DNA of 64,000 nt, taken from contig NZ_CAAHFG010000002.1 of NCBI RefSeq assembly GCF_900890425.1, positions 124,001 to 188,000 on the forward strand. Direction: 5' to 3'. Every line of letters begins with the position of its first letter. Within the stretch, counting starts at the first letter, position 1. Below are positions 116 through 38,493 of the stretch, one piece after another. The stretch comes from Pontiella desulfatans. Lineage in GTDB: Bacteria; Verrucomicrobiota; Kiritimatiellia; Kiritimatiellales; Pontiellaceae. Under the pieces are notes generated by a model. It ran no database searches. It was not told the DNA's origin and saw only the letters and a program-made list of their open reading frames with translations. A program made the position numbers and the translations under genes.

Positions 116-204
116 GCTCGGGTGGTGAAATTGGTAGACACGCAAGGTTGAGGGCCTTGTGGGAGTTAAATCCCGTGTGGGTTCGAATCCCACCCCGAGC
201 ACCA
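116..204 (+). tRNA. tRNA-Leu (GAG), prophage attachment gene
   Basis: A complete class II tRNA folds here. The acceptor stem GCTCGGG pairs with CCCGAGC, the D-loop has the leucine-type GTGAAATTGGTAGACAC, the anticodon loop TTGAGGG gives anticodon GAG, a long variable arm is present, and the T-arm is GTGGG-TTCGAAT-CCCAC followed by encoded ACCA. The 3' part from 176 lies inside the 40-bp phage att repeat, so the gene was rebuilt from phage DNA when the element integrated and should remain functional. Confidence 0.96.
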
Positions 205-215
205 TTTTTATGCCG
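176..215 (+). repeat. attL core (40-bp direct repeat)
   Basis: These 40 bases match 38454-38493 exactly; the copies diverge at base 175 versus 38453 and at 216 versus 38494. The repeat covers the tRNA T-arm, the acceptor strand, ACCA and the next eleven bases. It is the product of integrase-mediated crossover in the tRNA 3' end. Confidence 0.95.
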
Positions 216-309: not shown

Positions 310-1383
310 ATGGCTATTTATAAACGTGGTGATAAATATTGGATCTCAATCTACCGGGGCGCTGGGAAGCCGCGGAAGTACCTGCCGGCTGGCACCGATT
401 GCCGTGAAACTGCACTGGCGATGGAAGCCATGATTAAAACCGCCATGAACGGCAATATGGCGAGGGATCGGCTGTATGAAGCCATTGACTCGCTTATGGG
501 CTGGAACCAGGTTCCCGGCGTTATTGTGGGCGATCTATGGGCCACCTATTTGAAGACAAAGCCAACAGTCGGGCCGCACACGATGCGGCAGCGTGAAAGC
601 CTGTGCCGGAAGCTTTCGGATTGGCTGACCGGAAAGTATCCGGCAACCAAGGAGCTTCATCAGATTACGCCGCAACAGGCGTTTGAATTTTCGGATTGGT
701 TGCTGGAGGAAAAGGGCGGCAAGGGCAAGACGCACAACAACCGGATCGGTAATCTCAAAACGGTATTCAAGGCGATCCAGGTGCGGGCGAATATCAATGA
801 AAATCCATTCGGGTTGCATGGCAAGATGAGCGAGAGTGACAGCGTCCACGGCAGGCCGTTCACCGATGCGGAGCAGGCGGCAATCTTTGCGCGGTGTTGC
901 GAGGTTGGAAAGGATTGGTTGGCGATCTGTACCGTGTCGAAGTATTCGGGCGCCCGGTTGAAAGACCTTGCCCAGCTAAAATGGGATCAGGTCACACAGA
1001 AGCATATCGACATCACGCCGGCCAAAACGAAAAAGCATGGAATCCGTGCACTAATCCCGATCCATGTCAATGTGTCGAAGGAGCTTAACATGCTGGATCG
1101 GTCGGGGGAATATGTTTTCCCGACGTTGGCGGCGCGCTACCTGGAGAACGATCGATCGGAAAGCGGCTTTATGGAAGACATCATGAACCCCATCGATATT
1201 GATCGGGAAGGCGCACACATCACGTTTCATTGCTGGCGGCATACCTTCCGCACCATGATGGCCGCAGCGAAGGTGCCGGCGGATGTTGCCATGAAGATTG
1301 CCGGCTGGACGAATGAGGAAACCGCCGAGCTCTACAACCATGATTTCAGCCAGATGCAGGAAGCGATTGACGCGCTGGAATAA
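310..1383 (+). CDS. int: Tyrosine recombinase (phage integrase)
   Basis: This 357-residue protein performs site-specific integration and excision at tRNA-Leu. The catalytic domain shows the first Arg in KYSGARLKDLAQL (about residues 215-227), the His-x-x-Arg box in HCWRHTF (about 309-315) and the nucleophile Tyr in ELYNHDF near 343. An N-terminal arm/core-binding region precedes it. It lies right beside attL, the usual place for integrases of tRNA-targeting elements, and reads inward. The ATG at 310 is only 8 nt from the -10 box and has no Shine-Dalgarno sequence. Confidence 0.95.
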   Translation: MAIYKRGDKYWISIYRGAGKPRKYLPAGTDCRETALAMEAMIKTAMNGNMARDRLYEAIDSLMGWNQVPGVIVGDLWATYLKTKPTVGPHTMRQRESLCRKLSDWLTGKYPATKELHQITPQQAFEFSDWLLEEKGGKGKTHNNRIGNLKTVFKAIQVRANINENPFGLHGKMSESDSVHGRPFTDAEQAAIFARCCEVGKDWLAICTVSKYSGARLKDLAQLKWDQVTQKHIDITPAKTKKHGIRALIPIHVNVSKELNMLDRSGEYVFPTLAARYLENDRSESGFMEDIMNPIDIDREGAHITFHCWRHTFRTMMAAAKVPADVAMKIAGWTNEETAELYNHDFSQMQEAIDALE

Positions 1384-15529: not shown

Positions 15530-16351
15530 GCTTTGCTCCTGTTCGTTGCGATACGATAAGTACCGCTTCATGAATTCATCCATCTTGTCGCCATACTTGG
15601 CCATGGCTTCCAGCACCTCCGGCGAATTTTCGAGCAGGTCGAAAACGGCGGGGTTCTGGTCGAGAAAATCGGTAATCAATCCGGCTGGCGTTTCCTGGGC
15701 AAAGGCGGAAAACAGGCCATCGTTGGCGGCGGGTTCGTCCACGCAATCGCAGGCATGGAGCTTTTCGCATTCGACAAAGATTTCCTCGGAAAGCTCCTCG
15801 GCTTCATCCTCGGAAAGTCGGCTTCCATCTTCGCGGGTGTACCAGATTTCACACCCATACATACTTTCCCGAATGTGCCGATATGCTTTTTCACCATCCT
15901 GGGTTCTTCGATATGATTTACCCGGCGTAAACACGATCGAGGTGCCGAACATGTCGGCCTCGTTTTCCGCCATCGAAAGAATATAGGAATACAGATCGCC
16001 GTTGGGCGTCTCCTTGGCGCTGTTGCTTAGAAACAGATCCGCATAGCAGCAGTCAACCTTTGATCCATCGTCGCGGATAGTGGTGCCTTTGCTGAAATTC
16101 TTGAAGCGCCCGACAAAGGTGCCGAGGGCCGAGCTGCACATGTTGGGGTGACCAAAGCGCGCCTTGAGTCCTTGCTTGGTCTCGGAACCTTGCTTAACAA
16201 GGGTATCGATAAATTCGGAGTCGAGATGGACGCCATGCCCTCTTGCTTCGCCAACGGAACAAACCTTGACGCCGGCAATGATTCCTTTTTCATGATCCAC
16301 CTCTGCGGGCTTGCTTTTTAAGTAGCCGGTATCAAACCATTTTTTACTCAT
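15059..16351 (-). CDS. Capsid maturation protease fused to scaffold
   Basis: A 430-residue protein starting MSKKWFDTGYLKSK; the ATG lies within the portal stop region (AATGAGTAA), the longer upstream frame being an artefact. Residues ~1-170 form the protease domain, with GHPNMCSSALGTFVGRFKNF containing the likely catalytic His and SMAENEADMFGTSIVF a possible Ser region. Residues ~275-380 are extremely Glu/Ser-rich and disordered, followed by a helical tail. This is a lambda C/Nu3-type arrangement: cleavage removes scaffold and trims the shell. The catalytic residues are inferred, not verified. Confidence 0.75.
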   Translation of the reverse strand: MSKKWFDTGYLKSKPAEVDHEKGIIAGVKVCSVGEARGHGVHLDSEFIDTLVKQGSETKQGLKARFGHPNMCSSALGTFVGRFKNFSKGTTIRDDGSKVDCCYADLFLSNSAKETPNGDLYSYILSMAENEADMFGTSIVFTPGKSYRRTQDGEKAYRHIRESMYGCEIWYTREDGSRLSEDEAEELSEEIFVECEKLHACDCVDEPAANDGLFSAFAQETPAGLITDFLDQNPAVFDLLENSPEVLEAMAKYGDKMDEFMKRYLSYRNEQEQSMSTENDTSAEVATEAEELEETQSTEEVEATEAVEVVEEETTSEEAEAEESEEAEPSEEPEAEESELSEAEPSRTIDPEEFARSVDEFGAEVSAAAFKAGGGYAEAKEAYYAAIAVENKALKAKVAELGEEGADPAEFGEDTGKKISMEEVISGKRK

Positions 16352-17798
16352 TGCCGTCTCCTTCTTCCTGCCCCTTGGTCTCTTGCCCTGGATCGCCAAT
16401 CGCAACGGAAACTTTGCGCTTTTCGATTTCGCGCTCTTCTTCTTCGAGTTCGCGGACAATCTTCCGCCAGTCGCCAAGGTTATATTTCTGACAAATGCGC
16501 TGGCGGCTCTGAATGCCACCGGCCACCGCTTTTAGTTCTGCTTCGATCTGGCTTTTGGGGTCGTACCAAGGCTGACCGGCGGGGATCCATTCCACTGCCC
16601 GCACCAATTCCCGCGCGTCGGTAATACCGGCGGCCTTCATCAGTTTCGCCACATCCGGCAACCGCGCCCATGCGGCCACCTTCCACGCGGTGTATTGATT
16701 CAGAAAACTTCTGATCGACTCGCGTTTCTGTCGGCAACTTTCCTCGTAGTCGTTGCGGTCGATGATCCGCGCAGAAAAAGAGGACTTCATCGAGTCATAG
16801 AACGTGTAGGGAATATCCAGCGCCAGCAGTCCGGCCCGAATCATCACTTCTGAAAAATCGAGGAAACCCGAGTTTGGCGTCTTGCTCTCGATGGTGTCCG
16901 CGCCTTCCCCAGGTTCCAGTCGCAGCAACTGAGGGCCATCCATGAAGTTGATTTCAGCTTCGCCCGCGTTCGCAGTGCCGGCACTCGCCGCCGTACCGAA
17001 CTCGTCGCTGCCGATGTCGCCTTCCTGCTCGCCATCATCATTGATGCCGGTATCCTCTTCATCCAGTTTTTGACTGATCGCGATGCCGAACAGCGCATGC
17101 AGTTTGATCTTTAGCAGGGTGAAGTCCCAGTTCTCATAGAGGTCTTGAAAGGTGGTGATGGCCGTCGTCAGAGGACTGATCCCGCGCGTCTGATCGAACC
17201 GTTGGAAGTAACCATCAAAGATACAGTACTTCGCGTCCACCATGTGCGAGTAGACCAGATCACGATCAACGCGGTTGGTGATTGCATATTTCTTGACCGC
17301 GCCATATTGATCCAGCACCAGCCCATTGTCATTGAGCGTTTTCGGTCGGTTTTTTTTCGGGAAAGTCGCCGTGGCCCCCGCGATGCGATCGCCCTCGATA
17401 AACTGCAGGTTTCCGGTCTTCAGCATAACCGCAAGGGCATCGCCATCCGTTGCGCGGTGCGATTCCCACAAACGCAGAGCCCGACGACGGGAATGCCGCT
17501 TGCAAATGTCAAAGTTTTCCTTGCGGCCATGCCATTCGAAAAGCTGGTTGAGCTTTGCGTCCAGCGCATCGTTTCCTGTGCGGATTAACACATTGAAATC
17601 AGTCACATAATCCAAATGCTTGCGAACCATCCACGCCACCAGCGAAAGATTGCGCATCTGGTCGTGAACGGTGCCGGTCAGCTTGCGACGATCGCGCGGC
17701 TTTAGCATTGCGTCTTCGCTCATTGTCCGAGTGGCTGGGGCTTTGCGTTGCCCCTTGCTTTGGATCGCGTTATATTCCAGGCTGGTTTTTTTAGACAT
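16344..17798 (-). CDS. Portal protein (lambda gpB-like)
   Basis: A 484-residue protein of the lambda-type portal family: RDRRKLTGTVHDQMRNLSLVAWMVRKHLDYVTDFN near the N-terminus, ATDGDALAVML, then KEYxx-type FEWHGRKENFDICKR and a long helical C-terminus rich in Glu/Lys. It forms the dodecameric DNA channel at the capsid vertex. It follows gpW and precedes the protease, as in lambda. Confidence 0.85.
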   Translation of the reverse strand: MSKKTSLEYNAIQSKGQRKAPATRTMSEDAMLKPRDRRKLTGTVHDQMRNLSLVAWMVRKHLDYVTDFNVLIRTGNDALDAKLNQLFEWHGRKENFDICKRHSRRRALRLWESHRATDGDALAVMLKTGNLQFIEGDRIAGATATFPKKNRPKTLNDNGLVLDQYGAVKKYAITNRVDRDLVYSHMVDAKYCIFDGYFQRFDQTRGISPLTTAITTFQDLYENWDFTLLKIKLHALFGIAISQKLDEEDTGINDDGEQEGDIGSDEFGTAASAGTANAGEAEINFMDGPQLLRLEPGEGADTIESKTPNSGFLDFSEVMIRAGLLALDIPYTFYDSMKSSFSARIIDRNDYEESCRQKRESIRSFLNQYTAWKVAAWARLPDVAKLMKAAGITDARELVRAVEWIPAGQPWYDPKSQIEAELKAVAGGIQSRQRICQKYNLGDWRKIVRELEEEEREIEKRKVSVAIGDPGQETKGQEEGDGNE

Positions 17799-18004
17799 TA
17801 TGCACCCGGAAAGTTTACGTTATTGAAAGTGTTTTGTCGGCGCTTGTTGCGGGCCAGCGAACGCTTCAGATCCTTCTCGCGCTGATACAGCGTGGAAAGA
17901 TCGGCCATGGTGACGGTCTCGTCGCCCATGCGATAATTCTGGACGCCGCCCTCGATCGCCTTGATCGCCTCGCGCACGCTTCGCAACTGTTCCGCCGTTG
18001 TCAT
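17798..18004 (-). CDS. gpW-like head-tail joining protein
   Basis: A 68-residue protein starting MTTAEQLRSVREAIKAIEGG, with 'MADLSTLYQREKDLKRSLAR' following, closely resembling lambda gpW (about 68 residues). The start at 18004 is preferred over the longer frame, which adds a non-conserved Cys-rich leader. gpW attaches the tail to the filled head. In lambda it follows the large terminase directly; here about 4.8 kb of accessory DNA intervenes. Confidence 0.75.
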   Translation of the reverse strand: MTTAEQLRSVREAIKAIEGGVQNYRMGDETVTMADLSTLYQREKDLKRSLARNKRRQNTFNNVNFPGA

Positions 18005-18103
18005 GCTTCTGAAAAAGCACGGCGCACAAAAAAAGCGCAATCCACAGATCGCGCTTTCAAATATTTCACTTTATTGGCGTTGAGAATTCAACCAACGTGA
18101 CCC

Positions 18104-18132
18104 TTGACAGTCGTGATATGGTACATTCTAAA
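18104..18132 (+). promoter_or_regulatory. Promoter for the lone plus-strand gene
   Basis: A perfect TTGACA (18104-18109) is followed, 16-17 bases on, by TTCTAA/TCTAAA as a -10 box. It faces against the late operon and reads into the gene at 18151, fitting independent expression from the lysogen. Confidence 0.55.
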
Positions 18133-18150
18133 CCTAACCAAGGGGGCATA

Positions 18151-18570
18151 GTGAAAGAATTCTGGAATACAACCGAATGCGGAACATGGCTGTTTAACCT
18201 AAAAATCGAAGACGAAGTTGGCCGGCTAACGGCAACGCGAATTACAGACGATGGATTTTCCTCGTTTGATGCCAAGCCCATTGAAGGCGAAAACGAAAAA
18301 GTGATCATTGCCGCCGCTGAGGTTGCTGCCAAGGAAAAGGCTGGTACAGAAATTTTGCTGGTCACGATTAATGCGGCAAATCAAAAACCATACGCCATCC
18401 TAAAAAATGGCAAGATCGCAGCAAATCCTGTACTAGCAGCCAGCGAAGACGAGGCACTCGATCAAGCCTACGAACTGCTTCAACCAGGCCTACCACAAAA
18501 GGCATCGCACGCCCCCGGAGATTCTCCGGACTGGCAAAGCGCAATTACTGTCGCAAGAATAACGAGCTAG
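18151..18570 (+). CDS. Orphan plus-strand phage gene (moron candidate)
   Basis: A 139-residue protein starting at GTG 18151 (VKEFWNTTECGTWLFNLKIE); AGGGGG lies four bases before it, better than the upstream ATG. It is an alpha/beta protein with an N-terminal beta region (VGRLTATRITDDGFSSFDA) and helices later. It has its own promoter, opposes the flanking late genes and overlaps the end of the next gene tail to tail. Such an island is typical of genes expressed in the lysogen (defence, exclusion or fitness), but no family was recognised. Confidence 0.6.
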   Translation: MKEFWNTTECGTWLFNLKIEDEVGRLTATRITDDGFSSFDAKPIEGENEKVIIAAAEVAAKEKAGTEILLVTINAANQKPYAILKNGKIAANPVLAASEDEALDQAYELLQPGLPQKASHAPGDSPDWQSAITVARITS

Positions 18571-19028
18571 TACGGCATCAGCCCCGTCTTGCTACCCAGA
18601 TTCACCAGCTCGCACTTGCGCCGAAGCGCGTGCCGCTCAAACAGCAAAAACCAGATATGCAGCATGTCGTTGCTGAAGCGCAGGGGATCGGCGTTGCCAC
18701 TGCCATAGAACGTATTGGCCGAGCCCTTGGGATAGTCCATCGAACAGCCGACAAACGAAATTTCGTCCGGTTCGAGCTCGCCGAGGATCCAATACGCGGC
18801 ATTGAAAAACATGGTGGCCCCGATGCCGAGCTCCTGCCGGCCAAAGCGTTCGCGCTGGATGTCGCCGTCGTATTCTTGGTAGCTGATCGGCTCCACATGC
18901 GCCGGCAGTGTACGCACAAAACCCATGTACTTTTTCAGCCACGACGAATAGCTCTTTTCGGTCGAATATTCCATGTGCTTCAGCCGAATCTTTTCACGCA
19001 ACAACCCCAATGCCTTAGCTTCATTCAT
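18567..19028 (-). CDS. Chimera: integron-type recombinase N-terminus joined to DUF115-like C-terminus
   Basis: A 153-residue ORF with a good GAGGTGAT Shine-Dalgarno before ATG 19028. Residues ~1-40 (LREKIRLKHMEYSTEKSY then SSWLKKYMGFVR) match the SAM-like N-terminal domain of integron-type tyrosine recombinases (compare IntI1 [21 protein letters not shown]). From ~45 on (NAAYWILGELEPDEISFVGC, ADPLRF, ELVNLGSKTGLMPY) it resembles the C-terminal half of the DUF115-like protein at 6923-7606. Neither half is a complete enzyme. It lies just beyond the broken end of the cassette array and is probably a recombination product, expressed or decaying. Confidence 0.6.
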   Translation of the reverse strand: MNEAKALGLLREKIRLKHMEYSTEKSYSSWLKKYMGFVRTLPAHVEPISYQEYDGDIQRERFGRQELGIGATMFFNAAYWILGELEPDEISFVGCSMDYPKGSANTFYGSGNADPLRFSNDMLHIWFLLFERHALRRKCELVNLGSKTGLMPY

Positions 19029-19052
19029 GATAATCACCTCGGTTTAATACAC

Positions 19053-19080
19053 GACACATGTCGCTCAATCATTGTTCGAT
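19053..19080 (-). repeat. Half attC-like site at the array end
   Basis: On the minus strand ATCGAAC (one mismatch to RYYYAAC) is followed by ...ATTGAGCGACATGTG, closely like the left arm of the other sites (TGAGCGG). The right half is missing and the sequence runs directly into the ribosome-binding site of the chimeric ORF. It marks a deletion or recombination junction. Confidence 0.5.
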
Positions 19081-19238
19081 TTACGGATCTCATCCATGCT
19101 ATGCGCCCATTTAATTGCCTCACCTAGTTTAAGCCTGAGTTCTTCAGCCGCCTTCAGCGTGAATTTTTCAGTCCCGTGGCGAGAAACGATCCCGATAGGG
19201 AACTGAGCGTCATATCTTTTTGTAACGTCTATATTCAT
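19065..19238 (-). CDS. Cassette ORF, 57 residues
   Basis: Starts MNIDVTKRYDAQFPIG at 19238; GGAGG lies 5 bases upstream and only a few bases after the right box GTTCGAT of the preceding attC-like site, as in gene cassettes. The longer frame from 19313 would run through the recombination site and is rejected. The protein is a small alpha/beta fold with a helix FTLKAAEELRLKLGEAIKWA. Function unknown. Confidence 0.6.
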   Translation of the reverse strand: MNIDVTKRYDAQFPIGIVSRHGTEKFTLKAAEELRLKLGEAIKWAHSMDEIRKSNND

Positions 19239-19249
19239 TTTAACCTCCA

Positions 19250-19337
19250 ATCGAACCAGAACATTGAGCGTACTGTGAAAACGCCTGATTCCTTGTTTGT
19301 AGCTTGAGCGCACAGCCGCTCATGTTAATCGTTGGAT
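19250..19337 (-). repeat. attC-like site alpha (88 nt)
   Basis: Left box ATCCAAC (perfect RYYYAAC), right box GTTCGAT (near GTTRRRY). Arms AACATGAGCG-G-CTGTG and CACAG-TA-CGCTCAATGTT pair with a 1-versus-2 base bulge, mimicking the extrahelical base of integron attC sites. It follows the stop codon of the 77-residue ORF by two bases. Confidence 0.7.
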
Positions 19338-19570
19338 TAATCGTCGTAATCTGGATTTTTATCCATCCAGCGTTGAGCTGCGGCAGCCATGACCGCAGTG
19401 TTTTCTACATATTGCGCGAGGCGACTTTCGACCTGCTTGTTGTATTCCAGCATTTGTTCTTTCATTTCATCCCGTCCCTTTTTCGATGCTAGGTGACAGA
19501 GAAAAGCTCCAACACAAACACCAACCGAAAACATGATTCCAGCGGCAAACGCATTCAGTACATTAAACAT
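19337..19570 (-). CDS. Cassette ORF, 77-residue membrane protein
   Basis: MFNVLNAFAAGIMFSVGVCVGAFLCHL forms one membrane helix, followed by a charged, probably coiled C-terminus (KKGRDEMKEQMLEYNKQVESRL). AAGGAG precedes the ATG, about 25 bases after the attC right box GTTGGAT. The stop codon abuts the next attC left box. Function unknown; small membrane proteins are common integron cassette products. Confidence 0.6.
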   Translation of the reverse strand: MFNVLNAFAAGIMFSVGVCVGAFLCHLASKKGRDEMKEQMLEYNKQVESRLAQYVENTAVMAAAAQRWMDKNPDYDD

Positions 19571-19599
19571 TTTTCATTCTCCTTATGTTTTTAATAAAA

Positions 19600-19687
19600 A
19601 TCCAACCAGTTGCTAGAGCGCGACGCGGGCCGACGCTCGTTTTTAATGCAGCGTTACTTTCCCGCGCCGCTCACCATTTCGTTAGCC
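19600..19687 (-). repeat. attC-like site A (88 nt)
   Basis: Left box GGCTAAC contains the stop codon TAA of the 94-residue ORF; right box GTTGGAT fits GTTRRRY perfectly. Arms GAGCG-G-CGCGGG and CCCGCG-TCG-CGCTC pair with an asymmetric bulge. Same length and TGAGCGG motif as site alpha. Confidence 0.75.
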
Positions 19688-19966
19688 GTATGTATTCTTA
19701 ATCCACGTTTCCCAGTCAAAGCCGCAGTCGCAGACTTCTTGCGAGAGGTCACATTCAGGGCAATGCGGAAATTTGATTTCAACCTTTGTTCCAATCGGCA
19801 AATGTTTTGGGTCGATAGTCCAAGGTTCTTCTGTCGTGTCATCTTGCATATCTCCGTTGCAGAAACCCCAGAGCACAGGCTTAATTTCATCACCTGAGTC
19901 TCCGTTGTAGCAATCGGCTTTCACCTCAAACACGCAGTCATTTTGGAAGTATGTCGGTTCTTTCAT
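19682..19966 (-). CDS. Cassette ORF, 94-residue Cys-rich protein
   Basis: An acidic protein beginning MKEPTYFQNDCVFEVKADCY and ending with a CPECDLSQEVCDCGFDWE segment that could form a zinc-binding site. Its stop codon is embedded in the left box of attC-like site A, a hallmark of integron cassettes. AAAGGTG precedes the ATG, shortly after right box GTTAGCC. No family recognised. Confidence 0.6.
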   Translation of the reverse strand: MKEPTYFQNDCVFEVKADCYNGDSGDEIKPVLWGFCNGDMQDDTTEEPWTIDPKHLPIGTKVEIKFPHCPECDLSQEVCDCGFDWETWIKNTYG

Positions 19967-19991
19967 GTGTTCACCTTTCTGTTAATTATTC

Positions 19992-20078
19992 GGCTAACCA
20001 TGGGCTTGAGTTTACCCGGACAACGCCGGTTTTAAATTTCGAGTTTATTTCCCGGGCAACTCAGCCCGGTCGTTCGCC
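19992..20078 (-). repeat. attC-like site C (87 nt)
   Basis: Left box GGCGAAC, right box GTTAGCC. Arms GGGCTGAGTT-G-CCCGG and CCGGG-TA-AACTCAAGCCC pair over 14-15 positions with the same 1-versus-2 bulge as site alpha. It starts at the stop of the 69-residue ORF. Confidence 0.75.
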
Positions 20079-20287
20079 TAATCACGCGGGAGCCCAAGGT
20101 CTGCCCCGCAAACACGACATTCCATATCGCAATCATCAACCGACCAGCGGGACGTGTGCCCTCCGTTAAAAATACAGATAAGCCCCCCGAAGATCCGGCG
20201 AACAAGCGGCATCAGCCTACGCAATACCCCGCGCAATGCCCCGCGCAATGCCCCGCGCAGTTTCCAGAATTTGTGTCCATACTTCAT
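20078..20287 (-). CDS. Cassette ORF, 69 residues, basic repeat plus Cys motif
   Basis: The N-terminal third contains three near-identical RGALRGALRGVLR units encoded by a 12-bp tandem repeat. The C-terminal part has CIFNGGHTS...CDMECRVCGADLG, a likely zinc site resembling small DUF1660-type phage proteins. Its stop lies at the attC-like site C left box and GGAGAG precedes the ATG. Function unknown. Confidence 0.55.
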   Translation of the reverse strand: MKYGHKFWKLRGALRGALRGVLRRLMPLVRRIFGGLICIFNGGHTSRWSVDDCDMECRVCGADLGLPRD

Positions 20288-20317
20288 ATCACTCTCCGAT
20301 TTCCTTGCGAGGCTGTC

Positions 20318-20373
20318 CCGTAACGTTGGGCTGGGAAGGAATTAAACCGACCCAGCCGTAACAAACCTTAAAC
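20318..20373 (-). repeat. Degenerate attC-like palindrome D
   Basis: Hairpin GGCTGGG...CCCAGCC with a 15-nt loop lies between the sponge-like ORF stop and a GTTACGG right-box candidate. It lacks a good left box and is shorter than the 87-88-nt sites, so it may be a decayed site or an ordinary hairpin. Confidence 0.35.
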
Positions 20374-20778
20374 CGTGTGCGTCCCTTCAACGCCTCGCCG
20401 CATCCGCTCAATCGTTCGCTGTTGAAGCCAGTGTTGCGCCTCTTCGATGTGAGTCAGTGCACAGGCATTCGCCTTGCACGCATACGGCCCAGCCTGAAAC
20501 GAGCGCAGACGATCTGCAACGATTTCCAAAAGGACTTCTTGCGTAATCCCGTTCACTCCGATTTCTGGGATAGGGCCATTTTGGAATACAATTTCCACTC
20601 TCGTTTGTTCGTTCCGCTGGCCGTCTGTGGCGGATGGATTGAGTTGCATATCCATTCCATAGATTACATACAGATGGTTTGCACCTCCGGCACCCGGCGC
20701 GTCTTGAACCTCAATATCAAGAGTGTCGTTTGCCGGGTTTACTTTGTGTCCGTTCAGTTTTCTAACTGGTGTATTCAT
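20368..20778 (-). CDS. Acb2/Tad1-like cyclic-nucleotide sponge (anti-defence)
   Basis: A 136-residue protein from ATG 20778 (ACGGAG nine bases upstream). The C-terminal half has RVEIVFQNGPIPEIGVNGIT, then VADRLRSFQAGPYACKANAC, ALTHIEEAQHWL and RGVEGTHTV. As I recall the family, this pattern is that of the Acb2/Tad1 hairpin domain, whose members sequester CBASS cyclic nucleotides or Thoeris gcADPR. The N-terminal LDIEVQDAPGAGGANHLYVI region fits Tad1-type proteins. It would act in the host cytoplasm during infection. Here it lies in a cassette array, not the early operon. Ligand class unknown. Confidence 0.65.
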   Translation of the reverse strand: MNTPVRKLNGHKVNPANDTLDIEVQDAPGAGGANHLYVIYGMDMQLNPSATDGQRNEQTRVEIVFQNGPIPEIGVNGITQEVLLEIVADRLRSFQAGPYACKANACALTHIEEAQHWLQQRTIERMRRGVEGTHTV

Positions 20779-20823
20779 TGTGTTTTCTCCGTCCGGCTTT
20801 GTTGTCTTGCTGCGCCACCGGGA

Positions 20824-20894
20824 GCCCAACAAGAATTTAGAGCGTACGGCTTAACTCTTTCGCCACGCATCAATAGCCGCCTTTTTCGTTGGAT
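20824..20894 (-). repeat. Possible attC-like site D' (71 nt or partial)
   Basis: Right box GTTGGGC fits GTTRRRY perfectly. A perfect RYYYAAC left box (ATCCAAC, 20888-20894) occurs but lies inside the 45-residue ORF, and arm pairing is weak. It could be a site overlapped by the gene or a fused half site. Confidence 0.4.
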
Positions 20895-20988
20895 ATTGCT
20901 TCATCCCTTTTGAGGCACGGTCATAGGTTCCGACATTGCCACGGTTTTCGTGTTTCCCTCTCAGGTTGTGTATTTTTTCAAAAGCCAT
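20851..20988 (-). CDS. Cassette ORF, 45 residues
   Basis: A small basic protein MAFEKIHNLRGKHENRGNVG...AAIDAWRKS, starting 9 bases after the right box GTTCAAT of attC-like site B. No Shine-Dalgarno is obvious (TTTTAAGATT). The stop overlaps the start of site D'. The short leader and position match cassette organisation. Function unknown. Confidence 0.5.
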   Translation of the reverse strand: MAFEKIHNLRGKHENRGNVGTYDRASKGMKQYPTKKAAIDAWRKS

Positions 20989-20997
20989 AATCTTAAA

Positions 20998-21085
20998 ATT
21001 GAACCAGCGAGTAGAGTTCGACGCGGCACGACGCTCAAAATCCGATCAACGCCCATCGCCGCGCGTCTCACTCGTAACGTAAAAC
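20998..21085 (-). repeat. attC-like site B (88 nt)
   Basis: Left box GTTTTAC (one mismatch to RYYYAAC), right box GTTCAAT. Arms CGAGTGAG-ACGCGCGGC and GCCGCGTCGAACTCTACTCG pair imperfectly. It has exactly the same 88-nt length as sites alpha and A, and is the first site of the array. Confidence 0.6.
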
Positions 21086-21088
21086 TAA

Positions 21089-21140
21089 TGCGCGGGCAGG
21101 ACTCGAACCCGCCGACCTGATTGGCCTCTTCCTGCCGCGC
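21089..21140 (-). other. tRNA 3'-half-like sequence
   Basis: On the minus strand GCGGG-TTCGAGT-CCTGC forms a normal T-arm, followed by an acceptor-like CCGCGCA that can pair with GCGCGG about 50 bases upstream. The D-arm and a credible anticodon arm are missing, so this is not a complete tRNA. It may be a tRNA remnant, an old attachment target or a plain hairpin. Confidence 0.35.
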
Positions 21141-21147
21141 TTAAACA

Positions 21148-21699
21148 TTATTTCTTCGTCGCGCAATGGCAGCACGTGCCGACACCATCGGCATCCCACA
21201 TTGAAGCCAGGCGGCCACAGCCGCACTTGACCGCGCGCGCCTTAATTGGAACCTTCACGACCAGATGCTGACCGCATGCGCAGCAATAGCGGCAAAATAT
21301 GACGCCGTCAAAATTATGATCGGGCGTGGCCTGGTGCATACGCGGATCCCGGCGCGTCTCGCCCTCGAGCGCCTTGGCCGGATCGATGGCTTTGCCACAC
21401 GTGCAAGCCATCGGTAGGCACACCTTCGCGCCCGTGTTGCGGTAGGGCTTGAGGTTGCCGGCCAGCGCCTGCTTCAGCTGCGCCACGTTCCATGAATCGG
21501 AAAAGGCAATGCCTTGCTTGCGGCATTCATCGCGCAGCGCCTTCCGCTGGCCGCCGCTCCGAGGTGATGGTCGCTTGCCGTCCAGAGCCGCCTGCAGCTC
21601 CTTCGATCCCCAGCGCGTGGCATACTTGATCCCGCGCTCCTCACACTGCCGCTGAAGCAGTTGTTTCTTCGTCTGGTAGTTACCGCGTTTAACGCCCAT
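21148..21699 (-). CDS. Zinc-ribbon phage protein with SAP-like motifs
   Basis: A 183-residue protein from ATG 21699 (AGGAGCAAAACC upstream). Two similar helical units, KKQLLQRQCEERGIKYATRWGSKELQAALDG and KALRDECRKQGIAFSDSWNVAQLKQAL, look like SAP/HeH-type DNA-binding motifs. The C-terminal half has CTCGK, FCRYCCACG, CGCGRL and CCHC, implying two zinc ribbons. It overlaps the preceding small gene. It may bind DNA or RNA in late functions; a small-terminase role is possible but unsupported. Confidence 0.55.
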   Translation of the reverse strand: MGVKRGNYQTKKQLLQRQCEERGIKYATRWGSKELQAALDGKRPSPRSGGQRKALRDECRKQGIAFSDSWNVAQLKQALAGNLKPYRNTGAKVCLPMACTCGKAIDPAKALEGETRRDPRMHQATPDHNFDGVIFCRYCCACGQHLVVKVPIKARAVKCGCGRLASMWDADGVGTCCHCATKK

Positions 21700-21859
21700 G
21701 GTTTTGCTCCTGGTTGAATCCTCGTTTAAACAAAATTCGCCAACTGGCTTTAAGTCGTTCACGAAATGGCAAACAACAAAGCCGATTGAAAAAGGTTGAA
21801 TACTGCACCTTGATTTCACGCCGCACCGCCTGCCCGACCTTCCTGCTATGCTTTCCCAT
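21689..21859 (-). CDS. Small basic phage protein (56 residues)
   Basis: Starts MGKHSRKVGQAVRREIKVQY at 21859, with AAGGAG six bases before the ATG. Very basic and Arg-rich throughout; it could bind nucleic acid. The start overlaps the glycosyltransferase stop and the end overlaps the zinc-ribbon gene start, so it sits in a coupled operon. Function unknown. Confidence 0.5.
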   Translation of the reverse strand: MGKHSRKVGQAVRREIKVQYSTFFNRLCCLPFRERLKASWRILFKRGFNQEQNHGR

Positions 21860-22769
21860 TTTTACTCCTTGGTTTGAGTTCAAAGCGTTCGATCCAATCT
21901 TCGATTGTGCGCGTCCATGGAGTGGATTCGCGGAAGAGATCGGCAGAAGATAGATAGGCATGCGCATTAATTTTATTGAGCCGCGCCGCAAATGCCTTAT
22001 TGCAAGTCAGCCATGTGACAAGCTCCACTTTCGTGGCATTTTTAAACGGCAACATCCACAGCAACCGCAACCGGTTCGCCCAAAGCTGATCAACCCAGTC
22101 CACGGAACAGTGTCGAGGCTTGCCCATGTAGTGGCCGACGTAGTGGTCGAGTAGATCGATGCGGCCACCGCACAGCCATTGCACGGCGCTAATGGTTTCC
22201 TCGTCGCATCCCCAACCTGTACCGAGCCGCCATGGCTGATTGAGGTCGAGATAGCGCTGGCGGCGCATTCCGTAGCACGCGCCCATCACGCAGCTGATTT
22301 CATCACCGGGCTTGTTGTCGGCCCACTTGCCAACAAGAGCGCCATGGAAACCGCTGTCTTCGCGCACCATCCAATTCATGGCCGCGCCTTTGTAGACCCC
22401 GCGGCCCTGCGTCCAAGAATCGTGCCCATCCTCAAGCGCCACCATCTTGAAGCAGCAGAGGCCATCAGGTTCGTGGTGCAGATAGCTCCGCAACTGCGAA
22501 GCCCATCCGGGCTGGAAATCCATGTGCGCGTCGCAGGTGAAAACCACATCGCCGCCCGCTGCCATAATGCCGGTATGCCGGCTGGACTGGGTGCCGAGCG
22601 GCATCTCAGGCATTACCGCAGTAAAGTTTGCAGGCAAATTTTCTGGCGGCGCGCAGCCATCAAAAACAACAATCACTTCAGAACCCGGGGCCGTTCGCTC
22701 AATGCTTTCGAGCGTCTGCATTAAATGGGGTTCGTCCGCCTTGCACGGAATCACGATTGACAAGTCCAT
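21846..22769 (-). CDS. GT2-family glycosyltransferase
   Basis: A 307-residue protein starting MDLSIVIPCKADEPHLMQTL at 22769, with the GT-A nucleotide-sugar fold: VIVVFDGC near 35, FTCDAHMDFQPGW (Asp-x-His metal site) near 85, and GWGCDEETISAVQWL near 190, similar to the GalNAc-transferase-like branch. It probably glycosylates a virion protein or host glycan. It is the first accessory gene after the terminase and lies behind an operator-containing intergenic region. Confidence 0.75.
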   Translation of the reverse strand: MDLSIVIPCKADEPHLMQTLESIERTAPGSEVIVVFDGCAPPENLPANFTAVMPEMPLGTQSSRHTGIMAAGGDVVFTCDAHMDFQPGWASQLRSYLHHEPDGLCCFKMVALEDGHDSWTQGRGVYKGAAMNWMVREDSGFHGALVGKWADNKPGDEISCVMGACYGMRRQRYLDLNQPWRLGTGWGCDEETISAVQWLCGGRIDLLDHYVGHYMGKPRHCSVDWVDQLWANRLRLLWMLPFKNATKVELVTWLTCNKAFAARLNKINAHAYLSSADLFRESTPWTRTIEDWIERFELKPRSKNGKA

Positions 22770-22827: not shown

Positions 22828-24882
22828 TTAAATTTGAATTTTTTGCACTCGGGGCTTGCGCGCTTTTTTTGCCCGTCGCTTTACGGGGTCGGCCTGGCCA
22901 GCCCCGAGCAGGGCGGCGGCGGCAATACAGCCCTTGACGGCGTCGAGCAAATCGTTGCGCCCGTTCGGGGGCGTCCAGGTGTAGGAATCGACAATGTCGC
23001 CGCGCAACAACTGAAGCAGCTGCTGGCTGGCAATCTCGGCGCCCATGCGCTCATGCTTCAGCGGATCGTTGCCGAAAAGCGAAATGGATAGGGGAGCGCC
23101 GGCGAACAGTTTAAAGCCCTGCTGTGCATCCTTCTGCCAGCGGTCGCTGACATAGACGCACTCAAATCCGCGGTCATTCTTTTCGAGATGAACATCCTGC
23201 GCCCGCTTCATCACCTTGGCACCGCGCGCCGTCCGGTACTGCTTCGTCGGTCGGGATCTCGATGTCCACACCTGGAAGTTGAGCTTTCGCGAAAGCGCCT
23301 TGCAGGCCTTCGCCACGGTGTCGGTCATATAGTTGGCGTCGAACATGATCGCATTGAAAAAGATGCGGGTGCCGTCCTCGCGCACGAATTCGGTACTGTG
23401 CAGAAGTTCGCCCAGTTTCATCACACCTTGATAGACGGCCTGCTCCTCGGTCAGTCCCTGCTTGGCCGCAATGGCCTTCGACCATAGCCACTTTCGCCCA
23501 TCCGGATATTTGCCATAGTCGGCGATCCAGCCCGCGCGCTTGCTATCGAAACCAGCCGCCGCCCAGTTCAGGCCAAGATAGTTGACATCGATCATGGCCG
23601 TCAGATACTGCGCTTCGTTCGGTAGCTTACGCCGCCCGAGATGGTTCAAGGCATTGCGCACATCGTCGGCGGCGATCTTGTAGCTGTCGTTTTCCTCCCC
23701 GGGCGGCTCGTTTTGATACTCGGCAAGAAAAGCGGGCTCGCCGACTTTGTACAGCAGATGGAAAGCATGCTGAACGGCGGAAAGTTCCTCGCTGCTGTCG
23801 TAGAAATATTTACTCGCCACCTCGACGCCGGCATCCATGGCCTTGCGGTTGGATTTATAGAACGCATTGGCCTCGGCCATGTCGCCATTCAATTTGCAAC
23901 GTTGCCAAATTTCCTTGTAGGCATCCCACAGCGCCGAGTTTTCATATTCGTGCTTGCTGCCCTTGGCCTTGTTCTTCACGCCCCAGGCATAAACCAGCTT
24001 CGTGCGGTGGCCGCGCCACTCTGGATTATTCCCACGGTCAAGGAACCGATCGGCCAGGTCGCCTTTTTCGATCACTGTGCATGGCATCACTGCCGATATA
24101 ACCCGATCATGGCCGGCCAGTCCCATTACGTCGCCGCGAATAATCTTTTCCCGCGCCTCGCTCTGGTCGAAGCTCTTCGCGCTCTCCCGGGTTTGCGGAT
24201 CATCCAAAATAACGAAATCAGGCCTGATCTTCGCATCCATGTTTTTGTGATGCAGACCACGAACGCCGGCAGTCAATCCTTTAGCCTGGAGCACCGAGCC
24301 CCGCGCCAAGGTGTACTTGGTCTTCGGAACGGTGGGGAAGACTAGCCGCGCCGACTTCCATTGCATGTGCGTTGGCTCGCCGTTCACATGCTGGGATCCG
24401 CACCGCTGCACCCGACCTTCCAAATGCTCGACCGGCTTGCACACCTCGGGAAAGTCATCCTGCAACAGCTCGTTGTTTTCAAATTCCGTCGTGATGTCGG
24501 CAAGGATCGATTCCGCCGCTTTCTGATCCGAGCCGATCACCACCCCGAACCGGATATGGCCGAACAGGATTCCCCAGATTGCCGCACCCTCCGAAATCGA
24601 GGTCTTGCCAAAACCGCGCGGCATCGCAATCGCTGCCAGCCCGCCGTTCATCACCGCTGCCTCGATGCTCTTCACCGCCGCGATCTGGTCGTCGCAAAAT
24701 TCAAGGTAGAACGTCTGGCCTAAATAGGTGCGCAGAAACTTCAGCAGATTCTTTCGGCACGAATTTCGACGCCGAACATTCGCCGGCTTCGGGATCGTTC
24801 CAATGTTCTGAAGATCCTCGCGCTTCCTGGCGTTGTGCTTCGCCTGCCGGCTCATGCCATCAATTGTAATCGGCTCGGTCAT
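22828..24882 (-). CDS. terL: Terminase large subunit
   Basis: A 684-residue packaging ATPase-nuclease. Walker A is AIAMPRGFGKTSISEGAA (about residues 83-100), Walker B PDFVILDDPQT (about 225-235). The nuclease domain shows AMIDVNYLGLNW near 435 and IMFDANYMTD near 515, plausible metal-binding Asp positions. The C-terminus is very basic (KRRAKKARKPRVQ). Its size and the gpW/portal neighbours suggest the lambda gpA-like branch, but no small subunit was recognised next to it. Confidence 0.88.
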   Translation of the reverse strand: MTEPITIDGMSRQAKHNARKREDLQNIGTIPKPANVRRRNSCRKNLLKFLRTYLGQTFYLEFCDDQIAAVKSIEAAVMNGGLAAIAMPRGFGKTSISEGAAIWGILFGHIRFGVVIGSDQKAAESILADITTEFENNELLQDDFPEVCKPVEHLEGRVQRCGSQHVNGEPTHMQWKSARLVFPTVPKTKYTLARGSVLQAKGLTAGVRGLHHKNMDAKIRPDFVILDDPQTRESAKSFDQSEAREKIIRGDVMGLAGHDRVISAVMPCTVIEKGDLADRFLDRGNNPEWRGHRTKLVYAWGVKNKAKGSKHEYENSALWDAYKEIWQRCKLNGDMAEANAFYKSNRKAMDAGVEVASKYFYDSSEELSAVQHAFHLLYKVGEPAFLAEYQNEPPGEENDSYKIAADDVRNALNHLGRRKLPNEAQYLTAMIDVNYLGLNWAAAGFDSKRAGWIADYGKYPDGRKWLWSKAIAAKQGLTEEQAVYQGVMKLGELLHSTEFVREDGTRIFFNAIMFDANYMTDTVAKACKALSRKLNFQVWTSRSRPTKQYRTARGAKVMKRAQDVHLEKNDRGFECVYVSDRWQKDAQQGFKLFAGAPLSISLFGNDPLKHERMGAEIASQQLLQLLRGDIVDSYTWTPPNGRNDLLDAVKGCIAAAALLGAGQADPVKRRAKKARKPRVQKIQI

Positions 24883-29846: not shown

Positions 29847-30250
29847 AGCGATCCTTCCCATAGCTTTTCTTCGAAGCCGGACACGATGGAGCGGCAGCGC
29901 TGATTGTATTCGTTGAGAGAGTCCTCGGCCTTTGGTGACGCGAGATCGAACGATTCAAGGTAGAGCATCAGCTTGCGCCACTCTTCTTTCAGATCGTTGG
30001 CTAGTGTGGTGATTTTATCGTTGTCGTGCGGACAGTATTTCTTTAGCGACGGAACATACTCATGCCATTGCATGCTGTCGATGTCGTCGCTTTCGCAACA
30101 GATGCAGGCGCGAAGGTAGCAATATGGTTCTGGCATGGTTGCCCCGCACTTTTTGCATAGGGTTGGAAGGTAGGCGATGCTGTGCTGTGGCAACTCGTTT
30201 TTTGGCGGGTCGCTGGTGACCGCGTCGGTATCAAATAATTCTTCGGGCAT
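29843..30250 (-). CDS. Cys-rich early phage protein
   Basis: A 135-residue protein. LCKKCGATMPEPYCYLRACICC near residue 31 looks like a zinc-binding knuckle; the C-terminal half is helical (DLKEEWRKLMLYLESFDLAS). It is coupled to the following small gene by four overlapping bases. GGAGAAAGCT precedes the ATG. Role in early gene expression or replication is possible but unsupported. Confidence 0.5.
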   Translation of the reverse strand: MPEELFDTDAVTSDPPKNELPQHSIAYLPTLCKKCGATMPEPYCYLRACICCESDDIDSMQWHEYVPSLKKYCPHDNDKITTLANDLKEEWRKLMLYLESFDLASPKAEDSLNEYNQRCRSIVSGFEEKLWEGSL

Positions 30251-38453: not shown

Positions 38454-38493
38454 TGTGGGTTCGAATCCCACCCCGAGCACCATTTTTATGCCG
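38454..38493 (+). repeat. attR core (40-bp direct repeat)
   Basis: An exact copy of 176-215, containing the last 29 bases of tRNA-Leu with ACCA plus eleven bases. It marks the right prophage end; beyond it host sequence resumes. Confidence 0.95.

Follow-up and report, generated by a model that had tools for sequence, protein, structure and literature searches.

An integrase-less integron cassette array of apparently inverted polarity in a prophage of Pontiella desulfatans

Bacterial integrons are now regarded as carriers of anti-phage defence. The present analysis concerns an array of integron-type gene cassettes located inside a prophage of Pontiella desulfatans, within a 64,000-nucleotide stretch of NZ_CAAHFG010000002.1 (assembly GCF_900890425.1, forward strand, positions 124,001 to 188,000), which is part of contig 2 in a genome of 8.66 Mb and is called the window hereafter. 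A previous study reported phage-borne integrons and clusters of attC sites lacking an integron integrase (CALINs) in TJE1, PH101, P12002L, Vibrio anguillarum phages and Shewanella M16-3, as well as the recombination of phage attC by IntI1 (Qi et al. 2023, PMC9892861). In the portions of that study considered here, the phages resemble the window in having integrase-less attC arrays in their genomes, with DNA methyltransferase cargo in the family, and the Shewanella M16-3 CALIN shows a further likeness in being flanked by tail, capsid and terminase genes. However, the cassettes of TJE1 and PH101 run in the one direction typical of bacteria, unlike those of the window, the P12002L attC is described as divergent, and the same portions present no class of polarity-inverted arrays, no attC-embedded start codons and no phages of this host group.

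The orientation of a cassette relative to its attC is thought to guarantee expression from the integron promoter, and the choice of the recombining strand is set by the first extrahelical base, with a role in expression (PMC2727003). The reverse integrons of Treponema (PMC3607928) are similar to the prophage array in that integrase and cassettes point the same way, but in Treponema intI is transcribed towards attI and into the cassettes, whereas in the prophage array attI lies at the end towards which the cassette genes point, with an integrase fragment downstream of them. The sedentary chromosomal integrons of the same P. desulfatans genome share with the prophage array the attC family, the boundary rule and the 88-nt sites, and differ in having genes sense to attC and arrays that lie beside intI or what is left of it. 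What appears new relative to the known phage integrons is the polarity reversal of the cassettes. A search of the open-access literature gave no account of phage cassettes being systematically inverted or of attC sites that contain start codons. It is likely that the locus represents a CALIN, a cassette array lacking an integrase, here polarity-inverted and with an eroded integron on its left; its cassettes would be shuffled in trans by the IntI of the host and transcribed as part of the phage operon.

The first-pass annotation, made from the letters of the window alone, had proposed an integron-like cassette array inside a prophage on the basis of four palindromes, and the attC family, the cassette boundaries and the prophage ends all bear this out. 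The palindromes of 88, 88, 87 and 88 nt exist, each has an AAC box and a GTT box (GTA in the fourth) matching the RYYYAAC-like and GTTRRRY-like boxes that had been described, and all share the 1-versus-2/3 internal loop and the TGAG/CTCA motif. The naming of left and right boxes had followed the gene strand, although the attC top strand is the opposite one, and the count of four was short, as a fifth attC and a half site had been missed. The sites are given below with their scores under R1, a covariance model of our own used in place of the IntegronFinder attC model.

19074..19080, plus strand: attI-side cassette boundary GTTCGAT, the exact complement of the attC 1 R'' box (ATCGAAC)
19250..19337, top strand plus: attC 1 (81.9 bits)
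19600..19687, top strand plus: attC 2 (51.0 bits), R'' complementing the R' of attC 1 at 7/7 positions
19992..20078, top strand plus: attC 3 (84.7 bits), 86% identical to a host-array attC
20197..20331, top strand plus: attC 4, with a long apical loop overlapping a gene start, R'' complementing the R' of attC 3 at 7/7
20824..20860, plus strand: attC 5, left half only, right half missing; its GCCCAAC complements the R' of attC 4 (GTTGGGC) at 7/7
20998..21085, top strand plus: attC 6 (54.7 bits), with a degenerate R' (GTAAAAC), right edge of the array

On the plus strand, the four palindromic sites begin with an R'' whose last bases are AAC, followed by 8 nt, a single extra base, GAG and 2 nt, an internal loop of 2-3/1, a third stem, a loop with conserved ACGC, CTC, 8-9 nt, and GTT, or GTA in the fourth. 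We take this to be the classic attC layout known from class 1 and Vibrio sites, the extra base occupying the place of their first extrahelical base. The window sites, which carry both the boxes and the paired hairpin, are attC sites, and the array, with at least two of them and no adjacent intI, is a CALIN. R1 was built from a 25-site alignment of 21 host-genome sites and the four window sites, the latter being thus part of its training, and in the window it gave strong matches (51-85 bits) to these four sites only and on one strand only; attC 4, whose stems CAGCC/GGCTG and CGCAA/TTGCG were read from the sequence, was not reported. The host sites were included because MAFFT misaligns the four window sites alone. 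In this alignment, 86.8% of pair cells were paired, versus 68.4% when shuffled and 24-40% when slid, and 120 double changes were counted versus 50 in shuffles, so that the stem is supported by covariation. Across the genome, a strict attC pattern gave 15 matches versus 4 for a reversed control, the true ones clustering in arrays, and the sites are no product of chance. A home-made pairing scanner was abandoned for lack of stringency, as 309 kb of shuffled sequence gave 130 hits. A tRNA-like remnant at 21085-21150 (GCGGGTTCGAGTCCTGCCCGCGC, which resembles a T arm) abuts attC 6; it was unreported by ARAGORN and Rfam, and an Rfam scan of 18400-21900 gave no match.

Since the left-end bases of an integrated cassette come from its own R' box, R'' is expected to complement the preceding boundary rather than the adjacent box. 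This rule holds at 7/7 positions for window cassettes 1-5 (GTTCGAT at 19074, GTTGGAT, GTTAGCC, GTTCGCC and GTTGGGC), and it was through such box complementarity, together with stem pairing, that attC 4 and the half attC 5 were identified. R'' was an exact complement of the preceding R' in 12 of 21 pairs from phages and 91 of 105 from cells, and of the adjacent R' in no phage and five cellular cases, with random expectations of 0.5 and 3.3, respectively. These patterns indicate that each unit is a real cassette, composed of a gene and an attC and bounded by G^TTRRRY crossover points. However, as the rule is symmetric with respect to polarity, it proves the cassettes and not their direction. The genes are the following.

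19065..19238, minus strand: cassette 1 gene g6, 57 aa, without known function (open reading frame, ORF, with GGAGG)
19337..19570, minus strand: cassette 2 gene g5, 77 aa, without known function (ORF with AAGG)
19682..19966, minus strand: cassette 3 gene g4, 94 aa, phage family phrog_24515 (E=2e-13; two phage records)
20078..20287, minus strand: cassette 4 gene g3, 69 aa, with ATG at offset 44 of attC 4 and GGAG before it
20368..20778, minus strand: cassette 5 gene g2, Tad1 homologue, 136 aa (PDB Tad1 chains at E ~1e-20; phrog_2428; 119 phage records)
20851..20988, minus strand: gene g1, 45 aa, without known function (ORF)

It had been overlooked at first pass that these genes oppose the polarity of attC. 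The attC top strand is the plus strand of the window, as R1 matches the plus strand only and the extrahelical base, 8 nt downstream of AAC, belongs to the left arm on that strand, whereas all window cassette genes lie on the minus strand, antisense to attC and with attC at their 5' ends. A canonical cassette has its gene sense to the attC top strand and its attC at the 3' end, and the window cassettes have neither. Their minus-strand assignment is based on homology for g2 and g4 and, for most others, on ribosome-binding sites or fitting codon scores. The same contrast was seen across five phage loci, namely the window, IMGVR_UViG_3300022217_000002, IMGVR_UViG_3300017613_001601, IMGVR_UViG_3300025433_000001 and IMGVR_UViG_3300033151_000303. 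When orientation was called by ORF coverage, the bacterial cassettes were sense in 84 cases, antisense in 6 and unclear in 18, versus 1, 11 and 8 in the phage loci (Fisher p ~8e-10, ignoring non-independence); by codon score, the corresponding counts were 73, 19 and 21 versus 0, 14 and 2, the three window pairs being unclear by ORF length and antisense by codon score. In the chromosomal arrays of P. desulfatans itself, nearly all genes run with attC. The arrays of the first three IMG/VR loci lie on the strand of non-structural genes, and in IMGVR_UViG_3300033151_000303 the array is followed by a head-tail joining gene. That a normal array had been inverted as a block was rejected as the cause, since this would flip genes and attC together. 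In the Polaribacter phage P12002L, the extra base of one attC at 29960-30090, examined by eye, lies on the arm where antisense genes would place it.

A second property concerns translation initiation. A Shine-Dalgarno sequence and a start codon were found inside attC in 18 of 32 phage sites versus 5 of 175 cellular sites (p ~3e-13), and in the opposite orientation in 1 of 32 and 3 of 175, respectively. The reading frame passes through the L''-R'' arm into the gene, and several proteins consequently begin with attC-encoded leaders, such as GVATDSLNVLV and GSDSLNELV; RNA folding predictions leave the AUG mostly unpaired in 10 of 16. The sequences indicate that the attC apical loop of many of these phage cassettes contains both the ribosome-binding site and the start codon, and that the arm encodes the N terminus. 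Patterns for such start-in-loop attC sites returned no further viral contigs. IMGVR_UViG_3300017613_001601, a 41.7-kb contig with at least 10 attC sites over ~14 kb if the contig is circular, has several cassette genes with the common leader MT(D/E)TKKRDGLDSLD.

It could be argued that the reversal is a by-product, in which rare bacterial antisense cassettes were concentrated by selection for fit to the phage operon, with no separate phage lineage. Antisense ORFs do exist in bacterial arrays, where they account for 6 of the 90 called above, and opposite-orientation promoters and genes are known in Vibrio superintegrons (PMC11014356). However, the near confinement of the start-in-loop attC to phage sites points to a distinct cassette lineage, and among ten cellular antisense candidates examined, a proper Shine-Dalgarno-ATG pair next to attC without overlap was found in only two, both in this genome. 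The by-product explanation is therefore considered rather unlikely, though it is the rival that survives best.

Regarding cargo, g2 is a sequence homologue of Thoeris anti-defence 1 (Tad1) over nearly its whole length, and differs from known Tad1 in being carried as an integron-type cassette. A Mom-like protein and a PAPS reductase are found in IMGVR_UViG_3300022217_000002, an N6/N4 DNA methylase lies beside an attC in IMGVR_UViG_3300025433_000001, and IMGVR_UViG_3300017613_001601 carries a cell-wall hydrolase. Tad1, Mom and DNA methyltransferases have known or likely counter-defence functions, and the cargo with recognisable homology thus appears to be largely counter-defence, most other cassette genes having no assigned function. 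The window cassette genes include none in common with the other loci compared.

As the first-pass annotation had stated, no complete integron integrase lies near the array. Instead of an intact intI beside attI, only residues 9-39 of one ORF are IntI-like:

18567..19028, minus strand: 153-aa fused ORF at the attI end, residues 9-39 resembling the IntI N-terminus, followed by unrelated sequence

This ORF is a probable IntI remnant. It aligns to the host IntI, its only NCBIfam hits are weak (TIGR02249 at positions 4-34, E=0.0072, and NF011946, E=0.03), and PF13495 falls below the cut-off (E=1.6e-4). AlphaFold gave no usable model of it (pLDDT 37). Its start lies at a distance of 46 nt from the boundary on the attI side, which its 5' end faces, as in a normal integron; the corresponding distances in host integrons are 75 and 166 nt. 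The sequence upstream of GTTCGAT at 19074, the attI candidate, is only slightly like the host attI.

Chromosomal arrays of the same genome contain 22 sites homologous to the attC family of the window. The pattern of this family matches almost only Kiritimatiellae, mostly Pontiellaceae, which points to a Pontiella-like host. A strict pattern combined with a profile search revealed six attC arrays outside the prophage, two of them adjoining integron integrases and several without an intact integrase:

C1 (contig 1): 511-517 kb and 1469-1474 kb
C2 (contig 2): 67-68 kb, 801-802 kb and 978-981 kb
C3 (contig 3): 1199 kb

An intact host IntI is encoded at C2:975563-976492, ~0.8 Mb from the prophage (409 bits versus a cut-off of 265), a second integron integrase at C1:1467546 carries a frameshift and insertion sequences interrupt its array, and a third chromosomal array follows a truncated intI on contig 3. 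The ORF of the host IntI, of ~460 aa, has an N-terminal extension of ~145 aa ahead of the usual integrase start, and the start of the same extension survives in the truncated contig 3 copy (L036:4487-4732). In IMGVR_UViG_3300022217_000002, only a weak tyrosine-recombinase match, below the IntI cut-off, was found. In two host arrays, one of which adjoins the intact IntI, the last cassettes are small and antisense, and a Shine-Dalgarno sequence and ATG stand next to attC. These attC sites are 81% and 86% identical to attC 3, with 51-69% for two other sites compared; this suggests, though it does not prove, traffic between phage and host arrays.

A further explanation is that the array is a mere fossil, left by an old integron fragment, in which cassettes no longer move and the genes have become ordinary accessory genes of the phage. 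The half-deleted attC 5, the degenerate R' of attC 6, the reduction of the integrase to ~40 aa within a fusion and the lack of a cassette gene shared with other loci would fit this scenario. On the other hand, the boundaries of cassettes 1-5 still match perfectly, the two same-genome arrays end in cassettes of phage style, and a large array exists in another phage, IMGVR_UViG_3300017613_001601; the fossil is thus judged improbable, with about one chance in four conceded to it. That the hairpins are control elements of transcription or translation in the phage operon, as their location between co-directional genes and the Shine-Dalgarno sequence and start codon in many loops might suggest, is very improbable given their homology to attC beside an intact IntI, the rule linking R'' to the preceding R', the strand-specific extrahelical base and the R1 match to an attC-like site in TJE1, a phage whose attC recombined with IntI1 in PMC9892861.

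The prophage, of ~38.3 kb, is bounded by 40-bp repeats and has the following landmarks.

176..215, plus strand: attL, a 40-bp direct repeat at the 3' end of tRNA-Leu(GAG) (tRNA 116-204)
310..1383, plus strand: probable phage tyrosine integrase, intact ORF of 357 aa adjoining attL, with an HxxR-type motif seen by eye, assigned from this motif and its position next to the tRNA alone
16344-17798: portal, after gpW
17798..18040, minus strand: gpW-like head-tail adaptor, downstream flank of the array (phrog_118 and phrog_21 among the phrog matches of this region)
22828..24882, minus strand: terminase large subunit, upstream flank of the array (phrog_38, E=4e-25)
38454..38493, plus strand: attR, a perfect copy of the 40-bp attL repeat

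Primase, major head and tape-measure genes are also present, and with att repeats, integrase, terminase, portal, capsid and tail genes the element has the make-up of an intact prophage. The array sits between terminase and gpW, on the minus strand like the rest of the phage operon. In a distant relative (32-36% identity over three proteins), the terminase, an 84-aa ORF, a gpW-sized ORF and the portal follow consecutively with no array, so that the array, a glycosyltransferase and the fused ORF are most simply explained as additions in this lineage. Of the two outcomes named at first pass as refuting the array, neither appeared: the attC model R1 gave strong matches that include an extrahelical base, and the distant relative lacks an array at this place, no close relative having been found. 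Searches of viral contigs with the terminase and the fused ORF gave no relatives. A 157-aa ORF at 18097-18570 (plus strand), against the operon strand between the fused ORF and gpW, is a possible moron with no family match.

Several points weigh against an inverted array shuffled in trans. A terminase search in 97 relatives gave two distant ones only and no close relative, and cassette turnover at the array site was therefore not seen directly. Additionally, ORF length alone fails to separate the strands within the window, where three pairs are unclear. The family is carried by five phage loci only, with cassettes within one locus being non-independent, many phage attC sites have low scores of 14-36 bits, and the cassette genes include small ORFs. 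The Kiritimatiellae hosts of the four IMG/VR phages are inferred from the attC family alone. Finally, the cassettes of the Tetrasphaera phage TJE1 are sense-oriented, so that the reversal is not general to phages.

The inverted, trans-shuffled array would operate as follows. The recombinogenic attC bottom strand is here the coding strand, as the orientation shows, and the genes consequently run towards the attI end; they would be read from the phage operon and not from the integron Pc promoter. As no intact intI lies near the array, recombination in trans by the host IntI, which is intact in sequence and could fold and recombine the phage attC sites, is the working hypothesis, and such action would let phages swap small, largely counter-defence genes (Tad1, Mom, DNA methyltransferases). 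Polarity would largely separate the cassettes of phages from those of the host, since a normal bacterial cassette inserted there would be antisense to phage transcription. In Vibrio cholerae, a recombinogenic strand on the lagging-strand template raises cassette excision (PMC11023631), and the same strand could fall on that template here if replication and transcription are co-directional. That Kiritimatiellae phages keep their own inverted pool, in which attC provides the translation start of a counter-defence gene, which the host IntI shuffles in trans and which polarity isolates from the bacterial cassettes, is a broader proposal that we hold tentatively, at slightly under even chances.

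Among the cassettes of clear orientation in this coherent set of phage arrays, almost all are reversed, and attC often serves as the translation start of the gene as well. This breaks the rule that orientation guarantees expression and suggests that phages have a cassette pool of their own. Phages seem to put to use, for counter-defence, the recombination system that serves bacterial integrons. If this is true, the gene-capture machine of the host itself would diversify the anti-immune genes of its phages, and the finding makes the reassortment of viral genes by a host integrase directly testable.

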